Shown here: one piece after another, positions 3,994-23,879 of the stretch
How positions within the stretch are numbered: position 1 is the first letter of the stretch
Layout: each line of letters starts with the position of its first letter
Assembly (NCBI GenBank): GCA_001464165.1
Contig: LNEX01000528.1
Span: forward strand, 1 to 28,335
DNA from: a bacterium Ga0077546
GTDB taxonomy: Bacteria; Cyanobacteriota; Vampirovibrionia; Obscuribacterales; Obscuribacteraceae
Length of the DNA stretch: 28,335 nucleotides
Direction: 5' to 3'
The notes under the pieces: model-generated
Databases searched by the model: none
Told to the model about the DNA's origin: nothing
The model's input: the letters and a program-made list of their open reading frames with translations, nothing else
Position numbers and translations under genes: made by a program

Positions 3994-4596
3994 AATAAGC
4001 TTTCGAGGGTTGGTTATATCTCTGACTATCCAGTGAACCTCATACAACTGAAGCTTCGACCCACACCTCAGAGAAGGAGCAGTCAGAGAAACGATAGTTG
4101 ATGAGCGGGGTTGTTCGGTGGATGTAAGTAAGAGAAATAGGTGAATTGAAGGAAGCAATAAAGCACTATCAGATAAGAGCTCATGATTACAGTAAGTAAA
4201 AGCTCTCAATATGTAATCTATTTCTCAATGTTAGCGATAGCGCGCGCTAACCTAGAAGATTAGTCAGCGTCCTCAGAACGCAACTCTGTGTGGCATCGAC
4301 GACATCGTGTCAAAATTAGCCAAAATGCCCGAGAAGGCTGCACAGATTAATCTTTGGCCGCTTAGCAACCCTTTACTTGGATCTCCAATATATAGACGTT
4401 TAGGGTTAGACATCACTTCAACTCTTTAAACCAAAAGGTTTTTTCTCTCAAAGCAACTTTTTTTTCACCAGCAGGTAGAACCACAGCTCTGTCCACGCAA
4501 ATCGCGAGGAATCTAGCAGCACGGAATTCTCACCCGCCTAACCATCATGTCTTGAACACTCCGGTGCTCAGGTCGTGTCACGTAAAGGAAACAACT
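3994..4596. other. Divergent intergenic region, no gene seen
   Basis: About 600 AT-rich bases separate the minus-strand membrane-protein operon from the plus-strand ZIP gene and must hold both promoters. The only clear structure is a GC-rich inverted repeat at 4231-4250 (TTAGCG/CGCTAA around the palindrome AGCGCGCGCT). T-rich runs occur at about 4438-4472. I found no convincing -35/-10 pair. Confidence 0.5.
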
Positions 4597-5323
4597 ATGG
4601 ATATGACCCTCGTCTACGGGCTGGTGGCTGCTTTTGCTGTCAGCGTCGTTTCACTGATTGGTGTCGTGGCATTGGTGAGCAAGCGCTTCCCTCTGACCAA
4701 CGCCACCCCTTTCTTCCTCAGCTTGGCCGCAGGCGCCATGGTCGGCAACGCTCTCTTTCACTTGATTCCTGAAGGTTTCGAGCACTACATCGAGAGCGAT
4801 GGCGCAAATGGTCTGCAATTCGTCTCGCTGCTGATCACTCCTGCTTCATTCTGTCGGCAAGCACGACCAGCCCCACGCAAAGCCCATCGGCTACCTGGTC
4901 ATGCTGGGCGATACCCTCGAGAACTTTGTCGACGGCATCGTCATCGGTAGCGCTTTTCTGCTCAGCCCTGAAATCGGCATTGCCACGACGATTGCCGTGG
5001 TCGTGCATGAGATTCCCATCGAGCTTGGCGACTTCGCTGTGCTGATGCATTCGGGTTTCTCACGAAAGAAGGCGCTGCTCTGGAACTTCACCTCCGGCAT
5101 GATTTCACTTATCGGAGTGGTCGCTGCCTGGCATTTCGGACAACACATCGAGGGCTTCCCGCACCTCATGGGTCCGATTGCTGCCGGTGCATTTCTCTAC
5201 ATGGCTGGCTCGTCGATCATTCCGGCAATTCGCGAAGACGCGCACTTTTCCAAGGCTGGCGTGCATTTGCTGATTGCCATCTTCGGTGCGGCCATCATGT
5301 ATTCGCTGTTGTTCCTGGAATAG
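4597..5323 (+). pseudogene. ZIP-family divalent metal transporter, frameshifted with internal deletion
   Basis: ZIP proteins import zinc and related cations across the inner membrane. Translation would start at ATG 4597 after a good AAAGGA site. The first frame gives two ZIP helices, with the hallmark GAMVGNALFHLIPEGFE, up to about 4836. From about 4838 the family sequence continues in a different frame: HSVGKHDQPHAKP, GDTLENFVDGIVIG (metal-site helix 4), HEIPIELGDFAVLMHSG (metal-site helix 5), and three further helices to the TAG at 5321. Against the family, about 25-30 nt that should encode the end of helix 3 are missing between LQFVSLLI and HSVGKH, and the lost length is not a multiple of three. 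As written, the first frame ends at 4950 as a truncated peptide. It could be a true pseudogene or an assembly or sequencing error. Confidence 0.8.
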
Positions 5324-19357: not shown

Positions 19358-19390
19358 TAGTTCTCAGCCCTCTCATTCAAAGGAGAAATC

Positions 19391-22279
19391 ATGGCCAAAT
19401 TCACACAGCAGGCGCAAGCACAAGTGCCGGTGAGCAAGAAAGTGGCCTTCTCCTTTGGTGAGAAAGGCCCAGACAGCAAGAAAGACCTGGGCGGCAAAGG
19501 TGCTGGTCTGGTCGAACTGGTCAAGCTCGGCGCCCGGGTTCCTCACGGCTTCACCATCACCACCGCCGTTGCCCGCGCTTATGCCCAAGAAGGCGTCATG
19601 CCCAAGCGTGTGGTCTTCCACCTGCAGCAACAAGTGGCAGCGCTGGAAAAGGCAACTGGCAAGCGCTTTGGCGCGGCGGTCGAAGTGGGCACCATGCCCC
19701 TAATTGTCTCGGTGCGCTCTGGTGCGGAAGTATCGATGCCCGGCATGATGGACACAGTGCTCAACCTCGGCCTCAACTGGGCAACGACCAAGGCCCTGGC
19801 CAGCACGGTCGATGGGCGCTTCGCCTGGGATTCGTATCAGCGCTTTCTCAACATGTTCGGCGAGGTGGTGCTGGGCATCAAGAAAGAACTGTTCGACGTC
19901 TGCAACAACCGGCTGCTCACTCGGCACGGTGTCAGCGATATCGAGCAGCTGAGCGTTGCTGGTCTGACCGAACTGTGCGGCCGCTACCTGGCTCTGACAG
20001 AAGAAGAAAGCGGCAAGCCCTTCCCGCATCGCGCCCGGGAGCAACTGCTCATAGCAGTGCAAGCCGTTCTGCGTTCGTGGAACAACCAGCGTGCCCAAGA
20101 GTACCGCCGCCTCAATCGCATCAGTGGCAACCTCGGCACTGCGGTCAACATCCAAGCTATGGTCATGGGCAACCGTGATCAGAATTCCTGCTCGGGTGTG
20201 GCTTTCAGCCGCAATGTGGTAACCGGTGCCAGGGGCATGTGGGGTGAATTTTTGGTGCGCGGTCAGGGTGAAGATGTGGTGGCAGGTATCCGCAAGGCGC
20301 CTGATATTGCGTTGATGCGCCAGTGGAACGAAGAAGTCTATCTGGAGCTGGCTGAGCTGGTGGCAAAGATGGAACAGCATCGCGCTTTGCCGGTGGAAAT
20401 CGAATTCACCGTCGAATCAGGGGTGCTCTACATTCTGCAAGTGCGCGATGCCAAATGCACTGCAGCAGCTGCGGCCAGTGTGGCGGTGCAGTTCGTCTGG
20501 GAAAAGCGCTGGAGCAAAGAAGCAGCGCTGGCATTTGTCTCGAAAGAGGCAGTTGCTGCCCTTAAGGCACCGGGCTTTCATCCCATGTACCTGGCCACCG
20601 CCATCGAACGCAACCTCATCGGCCGCGGCATCTCGGCGTCGCCGGGGGCGGCCTTTGGCAAGGTGGTGACAACATCGCAAGCGGCAGTGGAAGCGGCAGC
20701 CCGCGGTGAGAAAGTGGTGTTGGTGCGCCCCGACACTTCGCCCGACGACCTCTCGGGCATGATTGCCGCAGTGGCCATCGTCACCTTCGTTGGCGGTGCC
20801 ACAAGCCATGCGGCAGTGGTGGCACGAGGCCTGGCCAAACCCGCTGTGGTTTCCCTCAATCTGGAAGTGGGTCAAAAGCTCACCGAAGGCATGGGAATCT
20901 CAGTGGACGGCAGCGGCCTTGTGCTGCTCGGCGAAGTGGAAATGGCAGAGCAAGTCAACAAAAAGGAGGTGAACATATTCCTCAAGTGGGTCGCCCAAGA
21001 GGAAGCGAAAAACTGGCCGAAGCCGCGCCTGAACTTCGACTACGTGGGGCAATCGGAGCGAGTGGAAACCCTCATCGCTGACTTTTACTTGAGCGATGCC
21101 ATGGTGCGCGAAGCCCAGGGCAAGGTGCTTGAGATGGAAGCGGTGACATTGCGCAACCAGGTGCACAGCGCAGTGGCAGAAAGACTGGCAACCTACATCG
21201 CCACTGCCATCGGTGGCGAGCTCTCCCACGGCAAGGCCAAAGACAAGTGCTACACCCCCGAGCTAGTGGCGGCCGAACATAAAGAGCTGAACGAGGGCTT
21301 TGCTGTCGAATTCAACGACGCAAGCTCTTGGGTACGGCCCATTGTAATTGCTCGACTGCAGACCCAGACGACGGCAGACCACCTGCGTTTTGCTGGGCTG
21401 GCAGCGACCTGCTTCAACACCCCAGCCTGGTCAACCAGCTACGGCGGCAAGAAGTGGGGGGCAATTGCCCAGGCGTTAGTGGGATTCTTGAACGGCACGC
21501 TCAGCCACAGCGTGTTTGCCGACCATGCATTCGACCTGCAACACAATGGCGGGTCAGTGTTTGGCAAGAATCGGATGGTGACCGGTGACCGCGATCAGAT
21601 TCACGGCCTGCTGGAAAGCAAGAAGCACGCGCGCACCATAGAAGAACTCTTCAAGAAGTTCATCATCCACGACAGCCACGACATATTCGACCGCGACGAC
21701 CGGCAAATGGCTTCGGCTGCTGTTGTAGCGCTCTATGAGCGGGGGCGCAAGCTCTCGCTCTGGGCGTCCGCTGCGGCAAAGAAGGAACCGACGAGCACCA
21801 TTGTGTTTGCCGAAAGCCTCAAGCCTTCCGCGACGCCGCAACCCGGGCCAACGAAACCCGGCCTGACAGCGCTAAAAGACCCGCACTATGCAAAGTCGAT
21901 TGAAGGGGCGAAAGCGGAGCTGCAGGAAGTAATCGACTATTTCAAAAAGCCCAGCAGTCACGGGTTGAAGATCGCCGCTACGGGAGGCGCAGGCAGCGGC
22001 AAAAGCAAAATGGCACAGGCAATGTCGCAGAAATTGGCTATGCCATGGCCGGACGACCTCCTGATGATCGACCCGCAAAACGAATTCGTTCACCTCGATA
22101 AAGGCAAGCTCGTCGACGAATACTCAGGTCTGACCGCAACCTCAAACCTCACAGGAGGAAAAACCCTAGACGAGCTGCTCAAGGGCTACAAGGACTCCGT
22201 ATACCACAAAAACGAAGAGCCAATAATCTTCACAGATGAGCCTTTCACAAACCAGTATTTCAAAGGAAATCTCTCATGA
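19391..22279 (+). CDS. PPDK-like ATP-grasp/phosphohistidine protein fused to unknown and P-loop domains
   Basis: Residues 1-355 match the ATP-grasp half of pyruvate phosphate dikinase: GGKGAGL with K36, VRSGAEVSMPGMMDT with R109, FAWDSYQRFLNMFGEVVLG, EFLVRGQGEDVVAGIR, and EIEF...QVR with E338, Q350 and R352. Residues 410-515 are the swivelling phosphohistidine domain, with GGATSHAAVVARG and H473. PPDK would then continue with a PEP/pyruvate TIM barrel of about 350 residues ending in a catalytic Cys region. I find none of that. Instead, residues 520-800 form an unknown domain with the pattern YGGKKWGAIA and DHAFDLQHNGGSVFGK. A Pro-rich linker (812-824) leads to a P-loop module with Walker A GGAGSGKS (865-872, K871) and two Walker-B-like strands (LLMID with D894; PIIFTDE with D949/E950). 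An AGGAG site at 19381-19385 precedes the start. The stop overlaps the next gene's ATG. Predicted: ATP-dependent autophosphorylation of H473, transferred to an unknown acceptor. Confidence 0.9.
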   Translation: MAKFTQQAQAQVPVSKKVAFSFGEKGPDSKKDLGGKGAGLVELVKLGARVPHGFTITTAVARAYAQEGVMPKRVVFHLQQQVAALEKATGKRFGAAVEVGTMPLIVSVRSGAEVSMPGMMDTVLNLGLNWATTKALASTVDGRFAWDSYQRFLNMFGEVVLGIKKELFDVCNNRLLTRHGVSDIEQLSVAGLTELCGRYLALTEEESGKPFPHRAREQLLIAVQAVLRSWNNQRAQEYRRLNRISGNLGTAVNIQAMVMGNRDQNSCSGVAFSRNVVTGARGMWGEFLVRGQGEDVVAGIRKAPDIALMRQWNEEVYLELAELVAKMEQHRALPVEIEFTVESGVLYILQVRDAKCTAAAAASVAVQFVWEKRWSKEAALAFVSKEAVAALKAPGFHPMYLATAIERNLIGRGISASPGAAFGKVVTTSQAAVEAAARGEKVVLVRPDTSPDDLSGMIAAVAIVTFVGGATSHAAVVARGLAKPAVVSLNLEVGQKLTEGMGISVDGSGLVLLGEVEMAEQVNKKEVNIFLKWVAQEEAKNWPKPRLNFDYVGQSERVETLIADFYLSDAMVREAQGKVLEMEAVTLRNQVHSAVAERLATYIATAIGGELSHGKAKDKCYTPELVAAEHKELNEGFAVEFNDASSWVRPIVIARLQTQTTADHLRFAGLAATCFNTPAWSTSYGGKKWGAIAQALVGFLNGTLSHSVFADHAFDLQHNGGSVFGKNRMVTGDRDQIHGLLESKKHARTIEELFKKFIIHDSHDIFDRDDRQMASAAVVALYERGRKLSLWASAAAKKEPTSTIVFAESLKPSATPQPGPTKPGLTALKDPHYAKSIEGAKAELQEVIDYFKKPSSHGLKIAATGGAGSGKSKMAQAMSQKLAMPWPDDLLMIDPQNEFVHLDKGKLVDEYSGLTATSNLTGGKTLDELLKGYKDSVYHKNEEPIIFTDEPFTNQYFKGNLS

Positions 22280-22851
22280 ATGACCGCAAACGCAGAACGA
22301 AGAGAAAGGCAGCGCAAGCGCCGCCAGCTTCGCGCGCACCGCAACCGCCCTACCGCGGCAATCCGGTGCGCGTCGGCCCCTACACGGTGCTGGCTGGTGG
22401 CACCCGCTACCTCGAGAGCTCCGACCTGGACAAGGCCGACGTTCTCATCCCCCTGACGGGCTGCCAGGAACTCAACTTCGGCCAGCTCTACGAGCTCACC
22501 GCCGAGCAGCAACCCTCCGGCATCACCACCTTCACCCCAGGCAAGAGCTACAAGGTCTTGGTGGGAAAGCTGCCCGACTTCGGCGGTGTTCCCGACAACT
22601 GGGAAGCTTTCCTGCGCCAGCAGGTGATACCACTGCTGGCATCAGGGGCAAGCTTGATGGGCTTCTGCTTCGCCAGCCAAGGGCGCACCGGCACCTTCTT
22701 GGGTTCGCTCATTGCCATCCTCGAACCCGAGACCGACGACCCCATCGCGGCGGTGCGTCAGCGCCACTGCGAGCATGCGGTGGAGACTGCGGCGCAAGCT
22801 GCTGCCATCTTCGCCATCAAGGGCATACCCGTGCCCGAACGCTACCGCTAG
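22276..22851 (+). CDS. Protein-tyrosine/dual-specificity phosphatase-like protein (191 aa)
   Basis: The Cys-based phosphatase signature CX5R is present as CFASQGRTGT, with nucleophile C131 and R137, on the usual loop after a hydrophobic strand (SLMGF). The general-acid loop is visible 30 residues earlier (KLPDFGGVPDNW, D101). After the P-loop the helix DPIAAVRQRHCEHAVETAAQ matches the DSP/PTP pattern that ends in an ET-xx-Q motif. The usual His before the Cys is Phe. The first 30 residues are basic and disordered-looking (RKRRTKRKAAQ...). Its ATG overlaps the TGA of the PPDK-like gene, so translation is coupled and expression is near-stoichiometric. It may dephosphorylate the product or target of that enzyme (inference). 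Confidence 0.85.
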   Translation: MNDRKRRTKRKAAQAPPASRAPQPPYRGNPVRVGPYTVLAGGTRYLESSDLDKADVLIPLTGCQELNFGQLYELTAEQQPSGITTFTPGKSYKVLVGKLPDFGGVPDNWEAFLRQQVIPLLASGASLMGFCFASQGRTGTFLGSLIAILEPETDDPIAAVRQRHCEHAVETAAQAAAIFAIKGIPVPERYR

Positions 22852-23273: not shown

Positions 23274-23879
23274 ATGTTCAAGACCAAGCTTCACGTCTCC
23301 GGCACCGAAGGCACCCACAACTACGTGGTCATCGCCGCCAGCCCCCTGGGCATCATCGCCGTGCGCCTGCTCAACAGCGACTGCTACCGCGTGCGCGTCG
23401 AGCCGGACAGCCCCGAAGGCGCCAACACCATCGCCAAGAGCCTGAGCCGCAGCAACGGCTGGAAGCAGCCCGGCGACAGCGCCCAGAACCGCTTCTCCAT
23501 CGTCGTCTCGGCCAGCAACCTGCACGACACCATCGCCAAGGCCGTGGACGCCCTCAGCACCGGCAACAACAGCGATGACTGGAAGAGTGGGGACAACGAC
23601 TGGTCTGCTGCCCTCGCCGCCGTGGCCATGGCCGGCAGCACCGACCGCGAAGTGCTGCTCGAGCGCCTGCGCCAGACCAAGACGCCCGGCGTCAACAGCG
23701 CCAGCAACTGGACCACCACCACCCTGCTGGCCAAGCTCGTCGCCATCGACTACGAGACCGCCAACCGCGGTGAAGCCGTGGCGCTCCTGACCAAGGTCAA
23801 GGCCAGCGGCCTGCCCGGCGCCAACCTGGCCAGCCAGTGGTCCATCGAGACCCTGCGCAAGAAGGCACTCGTAGCCTAA
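23274..23879 (+). CDS. Unknown protein (201 aa), last gene of the operon
   Basis: I do not recognise a domain. The N-terminal 90 residues are beta-rich (KLHVSGTEGTHNYVVIAASP, then IIAVRLLNSDCYRVRVEP). The C-terminal half holds two similar helical units, each with an Asn-Trp or Gln-Trp turn: GVNSASNWTTTTLLAKLVAI and LPGANLASQWSIETLRKKA. These suggest an internal repeat of about 45 residues. There is no signal peptide or membrane helix. Codon use is the most GC-rich in the window (Ser mostly AGC). Only a weak GAAAGA site precedes ATG 23274. A polypyrimidine tandem repeat lies upstream and a strong terminator follows. Confidence 0.75.
   Translation: MFKTKLHVSGTEGTHNYVVIAASPLGIIAVRLLNSDCYRVRVEPDSPEGANTIAKSLSRSNGWKQPGDSAQNRFSIVVSASNLHDTIAKAVDALSTGNNSDDWKSGDNDWSAALAAVAMAGSTDREVLLERLRQTKTPGVNSASNWTTTTLLAKLVAIDYETANRGEAVALLTKVKASGLPGANLASQWSIETLRKKALVA

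Follow-up and report, generated by a model that had tools for sequence, protein, structure and literature searches.

The K-X gene and its domains

The window analysed here is a stretch of 28,335 nucleotides, contig LNEX01000528.1 (assembly GCA_001464165.1) of the bacterium Ga0077546, a member of the Obscuribacteraceae. It carries on its forward strand an open reading frame (ORF) for a protein of 962 amino acids (19391..22279, with an ATG at 19391 and a TGA at 22277-22279), preceded by an AAGGAG at 19380-19385, 5 bases ahead of the ATG. The encoded protein, K-X, begins with a half of the pyruvate phosphate dikinase (PPDK) type, which we named K and which comprises an ATP-grasp and a phosphohistidine swivel domain (residues 1-521; 19391..20953, forward strand), followed by a domain in the place of the phosphoenolpyruvate (PEP)/pyruvate barrel, which we named X (residues 522-796; 20954..21778, forward strand), and by a tail. 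A phosphatase gene lies immediately downstream. The ORFs on the opposite strand beneath the K-X gene (19700-20380, 20417-20875 and 20900-21229) look like frame shadows.

The K-X protein matches the Pfam families PPDK_N (E 1.5e-38) and PEP-utilizers mobile domain (E 7.9e-18), and a phmmer search of the Protein Data Bank (PDB) aligned residues 19-521, and none outside them, with the PPDK of Clostridium symbiosum (9pzl, E 6.5e-108). The first-pass annotation, made by a model from the letters alone, had proposed that the ATP-grasp and phosphohistidine halves of PPDK are kept and had set out a map of catalytic residues. The phmmer alignment agrees with both, pairing R109, E338, Q350, R352 and H473 of K-X with R92, E323, Q335, R337 and H455 of the C. 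symbiosum enzyme. All 38 sequences of alignment A4 have E338, Q350, R352 and H473, and at least 90% of them have R109. On the phosphorylation side, K-X has what is expected of a PPDK, namely an ATP-grasp and a His domain with the equivalents of five catalytic residues. The codon of H473, the phosphocarrier predicted from the C. symbiosum alignment and from conservation, lies at 20807..20809, and those of the other catalytic residues at 19715-19717 (R109), 20402-20404 (E338), 20438-20440 (Q350) and 20444-20446 (R352), all on the forward strand. In the PHROGs collection, residues 27-531 match phrog_18609, a phage 'kinase' family (E 5.6e-120), over profile positions 19-516 of 685, with the end of the profile unmatched.

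The NCBIfam model of PPDK, TIGR01828, aligned with K-X only over profile positions 2-525 of 865 and scored 526.8 bits, below its curated cut-off of 843.45, while a canonical PPDK used as a control (L031) was aligned over positions 7-865 with 1355.5 bits. In two phage kinases the TIGR01828 alignment ended at 513 and 523. No barrel model matched K-X in Pfam at E values up to 1, where the matches were to PPDK_N, to PEP-utilizers and, weakly, to a P-loop family, and no PEP-utilising C-terminal domain was found by Pfam in four phage kinases. A search for a barrel within residues 515-850, named in the first-pass annotation as the result that would speak against its proposal of a replaced barrel, gave a negative result: the best PDB chains cover the model of full-length K-X over residues 16 to ~576 only, and X is modelled as all-helical. 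What K-X lacks of a PPDK is the C-terminal PEP/pyruvate TIM barrel and a TIGR01828 score above the cut-off. K descends from the corresponding half of PPDK and, because the barrel was tested for and found missing, the K-X protein itself is no PPDK. As the phosphorylation half is kept but the barrel is replaced, the acceptor of K-X is probably other than pyruvate, as the annotation had anticipated.

X is predicted to be a compact all-helical domain, both when modelled alone by AlphaFold2 (pLDDT 83.1, pTM 0.85) and within the model of full-length K-X. Residues 650-743 match phrog_20946, a PHROGs family of unknown function (E 1.4e-15); the match of X to a hidden Markov model (HMM) built from alignment A3 (E 3.5e-54) is circular, the X of the window being a member of A3. 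A PDB fold search gave no clear match for X among solved structures, any one Pfam family is matched by at most 2 of the 72 members of the X family (best E 0.0052), and the phage X gave no PADLOC match. The pattern GGKKW...DHxxDLxHNxGxxxxK, noticed earlier in the single sequence, proved to be real, with G685, G686, W689, D711, L716, H718, N719 and K726 present in all 72 sequences of A3; Y566, Y602, E610 and H613 are also among the conserved residues of X.

Fused genes in bacteria and split genes in phages

The first-pass annotation knew of no protein with this order of domains, yet the order is shared. At least 38 relatives with the C-terminal part (query residues 535-962) were obtained from 7997 candidates scored and, among the matches listed, 36 of 38 carry both PPDK domains of Pfam. 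Because relatives with the same order occur in independent assemblies, the longest contigs having 650,560 and 6,694,848 bases, the K-X order is no assembly accident, which also contradicts a misassembled C-terminal junction, the other result that had been named as fatal to the earlier proposal. The 13 bacterial genomes that carry K-X have 16 places with an X, every one of them directly behind a K half on the same contig. One metagenome assembly, the Obscuribacter isolate MP5IB2, holds three K-X copies (L006, L008 and L018), each with a gene for a TEGT protein (described below) downstream, and a metagenome protein of 537 amino acids (P0039) has X without K, behind a long cysteine-rich N-terminal part.

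Among annotated phages, X occurs in 40 records, and all of these but one, a fragment of 5,842 bases, contain a K half as well. Some of these records are the same or near-identical phages, so that the 39 records that combine K and X, among them that of phage J26 (PP534163), are not 39 independent cases. K without X was found in 18 phage records, comprising two phage G entries, one fragment of 1,495 bases and 15 Listeria, Enterococcus or faecal entries. Two of these 15, unverified records of the phage collection that were opened (L029 and L030), contain an ORF of 881 amino acids, the full length of a PPDK, and are probably bacterial DNA within that collection. In the Bacillus phage G, which is absent from the X records, gp139 (L028:5881-6978) is a minimal K half of 365 amino acids that has PPDK_N and His domains.

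Twelve loci in which K and X are separate genes were examined, seven in phage records (L001-L003 and L024-L027) and five in bacterial contigs (L016, L017, L020, L022 and L023). The order of genes is K, dual-specificity phosphatase (DSP), X, DSP in ten of them and K, DSP, X in two. At least one small gene lies between K and the first DSP gene in the seven annotated phages, and in four phages that were opened the module stands between genes annotated as terminase and DNA polymerase. In the Vibrio phage VH2_2019, a CsrA-like protein is encoded between the kinase and the first phosphatase (L001:7058-7540; Pfam CsrA, E 1.9e-6).

A quick maximum-likelihood tree was calculated from 36 chosen K halves (16 fused, 12 phage or split-type and 8 canonical), in which the 16 fused rows cluster together, with a support of 99 by the approximate likelihood ratio test SH-aLRT. 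The fused rows stand apart from the 8 canonical PPDKs by a split with a support of 97, the tree being rooted there by choice, and four of the 8 canonical rows share genomes with fused rows. Phage G forms a long branch. A single fusion event would be the simplest reading of the origin of K-X. K-X is distinct from the PPDK of the cell: a full-length PPDK above the TIGR01828 cut-off (1285-1356 bits) is present in 9 of the 13 K-X genomes, and three of the five genomes behind the bacterial split-type loci also have one over the cut-off.

The tail and the neighbouring genes

The lineage-specific tail of K-X (residues 797-962; 21779..22276, forward strand) is rich in proline and contains the Walker A motif GGAGSGKS (residues 865-872; 21983-22006, forward strand). 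The P-loop motif reported by the first-pass annotation is present, but the second nucleotide-driven step that had been attached to it found no support. A glycine-rich Walker A follows X in 8 of the 37 proteins assessed (P0001-P0004, P0006, P0007, P0010 and P0011), and the ~100 residues from the Walker A to the end of the protein, the candidate stretch for a folded NTPase domain with a Walker B, mostly have pLDDT values under 50. Such values extend over residues 794-832, 853-872 and 882-962 of the full-length model, which draws on few sequences that have a tail. Weak matches to DUF87 (16.6 bits, cut-off 23.2) and to the PADLOC model mad8 (20.4 bits) point to a HerA-like relative, and we treat the tail as a lineage-specific, accessory addition.

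The TGA of K-X overlaps, as ATGA (22276-22279), the ATG of a gene for a phosphatase of the DSP/protein tyrosine phosphatase (PTP) type (22276..22851, forward strand; 191 amino acids), with the CX5R motif CFASQGR and the Cys131 codon at 22666. Neither this gene nor the phage counterpart of X figured in the first-pass annotation. As expected of a CX5R phosphatase, C131 and R137 are shared by all 25 aligned proteins. Like the two phosphatases of phage VH2_2019, the window phosphatase belongs by its match to phrog_17568 (E 5.3e-8); it has no Pfam match at E values up to 0.5, and a phage relative (L001:7518-8075) matches DSPc above the cut-off. Three phage phosphatases of the module (L024:8683-9153, L024:10208-10996 and L027:8457-8933) are labelled thymidylate synthase in RefSeq despite their CX5R motif, as is phrog_17568, which is likely a propagated mislabel. 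Homologues of the phosphatase are found in 12 of 12 split loci and in 7 of 16 fused loci.

Further downstream, the 'TEGT' protein, of unknown function (23274..23879, forward strand; 201 amino acids), has homologous ORFs in 13 of the 16 fused loci, the window and 15 others. The HMMs of both the phosphatase and TEGT were seeded from these same loci, and their counts per locus are thus counts of homologues and no independent test. In a genome-wide scan, the phosphatase profile matched nine places in 7 of the 13 genomes, strongly at seven places on K-X contigs and weakly at two (G003) that lie on other contigs, and the TEGT profile matched 18 places in 10 of the 13 genomes, 16 of them on K-X contigs. 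The TEGT family (36 homologues; the named sources of three are Obscuribacterales, Cyanobacteriota and 'bacterium') has a conserved core, GTEGT...RVRVEP...WKQPG..QNRFS, and C-terminal repeats of the type GANxASxWxxxTLRxK, which we take to recall SAP-like motifs. Elsewhere in the window, two overlapping ORFs in different frames (4552-4950 and 4901-5323, forward strand) resemble ZIP zinc transporters, one in the N-terminal and the other in the C-terminal part of that family, possibly as a result of a frameshift or a sequencing error.

Proposed mechanism and relation to known systems

Judging from its sequence, K-X is rather likely to be a PPDK-derived dikinase which passes a phosphate of ATP via H473 either to X or to a substrate that X holds. 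We infer that the acceptor is X, or is held by X, because X stands at the place of the barrel, is the only other constant part of the system and has a conserved set of polar residues, of which E610, H613, D711, H718, N719 and K726 would be the likely docking or acceptor site. H473 would be phosphorylated from ATP, with AMP as a product as in PPDK, the swivel domain would then dock on X instead of on the barrel and, where present, the DSP phosphatase would remove that phosphate. We propose more tentatively, as a possibility that we hold to be short of even, that this is a write-and-erase phosphorylation system common to phages and Obscuribacterales, in which a PPDK-type histidine swivel kinase loads X, itself the acceptor or its carrier, and paired CX5R phosphatases unload it.

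Several points weigh against this interpretation. The acceptor side of K-X is putative, and so is the docking of H473 on X. No match to the phosphatase family was found in 6 of the 13 K-X genomes, a seventh has only the two weak ones on contigs without K-X, and two loci (L010 and L011) carry K-X with neither phosphatase nor TEGT nearby or anywhere in the genome. As the phosphatase is missing from many K-X genomes, the eraser would be optional and not obligatory. Four of the 13 K-X genomes, whose completeness is not given, show no full-length PPDK over the cut-off. In the K tree, the 12 phage or split-type rows are united with a support of 26, which becomes 86 for the 11 rows other than phage G. 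Moreover, the split-type kinases have ~180-230 residues after the K match, ahead of the separate X gene, so that the complex in phages may be arranged differently from the fused protein.

X might merely dock or regulate, while K phosphorylates a separate partner protein. For this alternative, which we regard as doubtful, there is a precedent in VadK; in the consulted portion of its description, this PPDK half lacks the pyruvate domain, phosphorylates itself on a histidine and interacts with other enzymes (PMC13400623). The TEGT and DSP genes beside many K-X genes would suit it, as would phage G, with its K half of 365 amino acids and its place outside the 40 X records. However, X has a conserved polar block typical of active or binding sites, and it accompanies K in all but one of the 40 phage records and in every one of the 16 bacterial places, a strong link for a mere adaptor. 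Alternatively, X could be an enzyme in its own right, for instance one acting on nucleic acids or nucleotides in phage replication, which the kinase would switch on and the phosphatase off. The invariance of its E, H, D, H, N and K and the position of the phage module between terminase and DNA polymerase genes fit such a role, but the Pfam matches to X are confined to at most 2 of 72 members, the PDB gave no clear fold match and PADLOC gave none for the phage X, and we consider this unlikely.

The phage homologues are annotated as ppdK or pyruvate phosphate dikinase, and taken at face value these auxiliary metabolic genes would encode a working PPDK with a hidden or separate barrel. The barrel of PPDK comprises ~340 residues. 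In the consulted portion of a recent study (PMC12038007), residues 524-691 of the PPDK of Vibrio phage J26 (691 amino acids) are read as a four-strand TIM-barrel pyruvate domain with PEP docked, and the structural overlap with 1GGO spans residues 1-527. Nevertheless, these 168 residues are too few for a PPDK barrel and are described with four strands, Pfam found no barrel in P0001 and four phage kinases, X is modelled as all-helical, and most of the K-X and split-type genomes (9 of 13 and 3 of 5) have a separate full-length PPDK, all of which makes a working PPDK very improbable. Judged from the relatives of J26, a TIM-barrel pyruvate domain in the J26 protein is unlikely, and the phage genes of this group published as "PPDKs" are likely mislabelled and in need of relabelling. 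Lastly, the poorly folded tail might be taken as a sign of misassembly or of a decaying PPDK gene, an explanation that we find scarcely credible given the K-X order in independent assemblies, the retention of the catalytic residues of K and DSP and the conservation of X with phages; the relatives already contradict it.

The relabelling of the phage genes is a correction that can be tested: K accompanies X in 39 phage records, the four of their kinases scanned with Pfam have no barrel, and one of the 39 was read in 2025 as a TIM-barrel pyruvate enzyme, going by the portion consulted (PMC12038007). If the write-and-erase system exists, the fold of X would have no relative among solved structures, and a whole group of calls of phage ppdK as an auxiliary metabolic gene would shift from carbon metabolism to regulated phosphorylation. 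Among the closest counterparts are the phage 'ppdK' kinases (phrog_18609) and phrog_20946 proteins of Vibrio, Stenotrophomonas, Rhizobium and Rhodobacter phages, which have the K half and the X family of K-X near a DSP phosphatase but, unlike K-X, as separate genes, with the C-terminal extension of K and, in 10 of 12 split loci, with two phosphatase genes flanking X. K-X resembles PPDK itself (TIGR01828; C. symbiosum 1kbl) in the ATP-grasp and phosphohistidine domains, in the catalytic residues and in the order up to ~521, whereas PPDK has the PEP/pyruvate TIM barrel where K-X has X, and K-X scores under the TIGR01828 cut-off.

VadK (Rv1127c), a truncated PPDK without the pyruvate domain that autophosphorylates at His422, shares with K-X the ATP-binding and His domains and the lack of a pyruvate domain; the consulted portion of its report describes only those two domains and mentions no X, and K-X, in which X follows directly, falls outside that definition (PMC13400623). 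Rifampin phosphotransferase (RPH) transfers phosphate to rifampin via a His swivel domain, according to the portion of the source consulted (PMC4844700). It has a rifampin-binding domain and its His domain at the C-terminal end, whereas the order in K-X is ATP, His, X. The His stretch of K-X matches residues 801-874 of RPH 5hv1 and positions 765-857 of 864 of the RPH profile NF041857, and K-X as a whole scores 35.6 bits against that profile in three stretches (the best being residues 413-508), below the cut-off of 999. HpeHI, which in the consulted portion of its description transfers phosphate to aromatic compounds via a His swivel domain, has its dikinase parts on two chains, as do phage K and X (PMC12167813). 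HpeHI splits between the ATP-grasp and the swivel plus substrate domains, while phage K and X are split after the swivel domain. PPDK, PEP synthase, RPH, HpeHI and VadK represent one phosphorylation engine with different acceptors, to which K-X adds an acceptor-side domain without a clear match among solved structures, in fused and split layouts that make the pairing of K and X directly testable.

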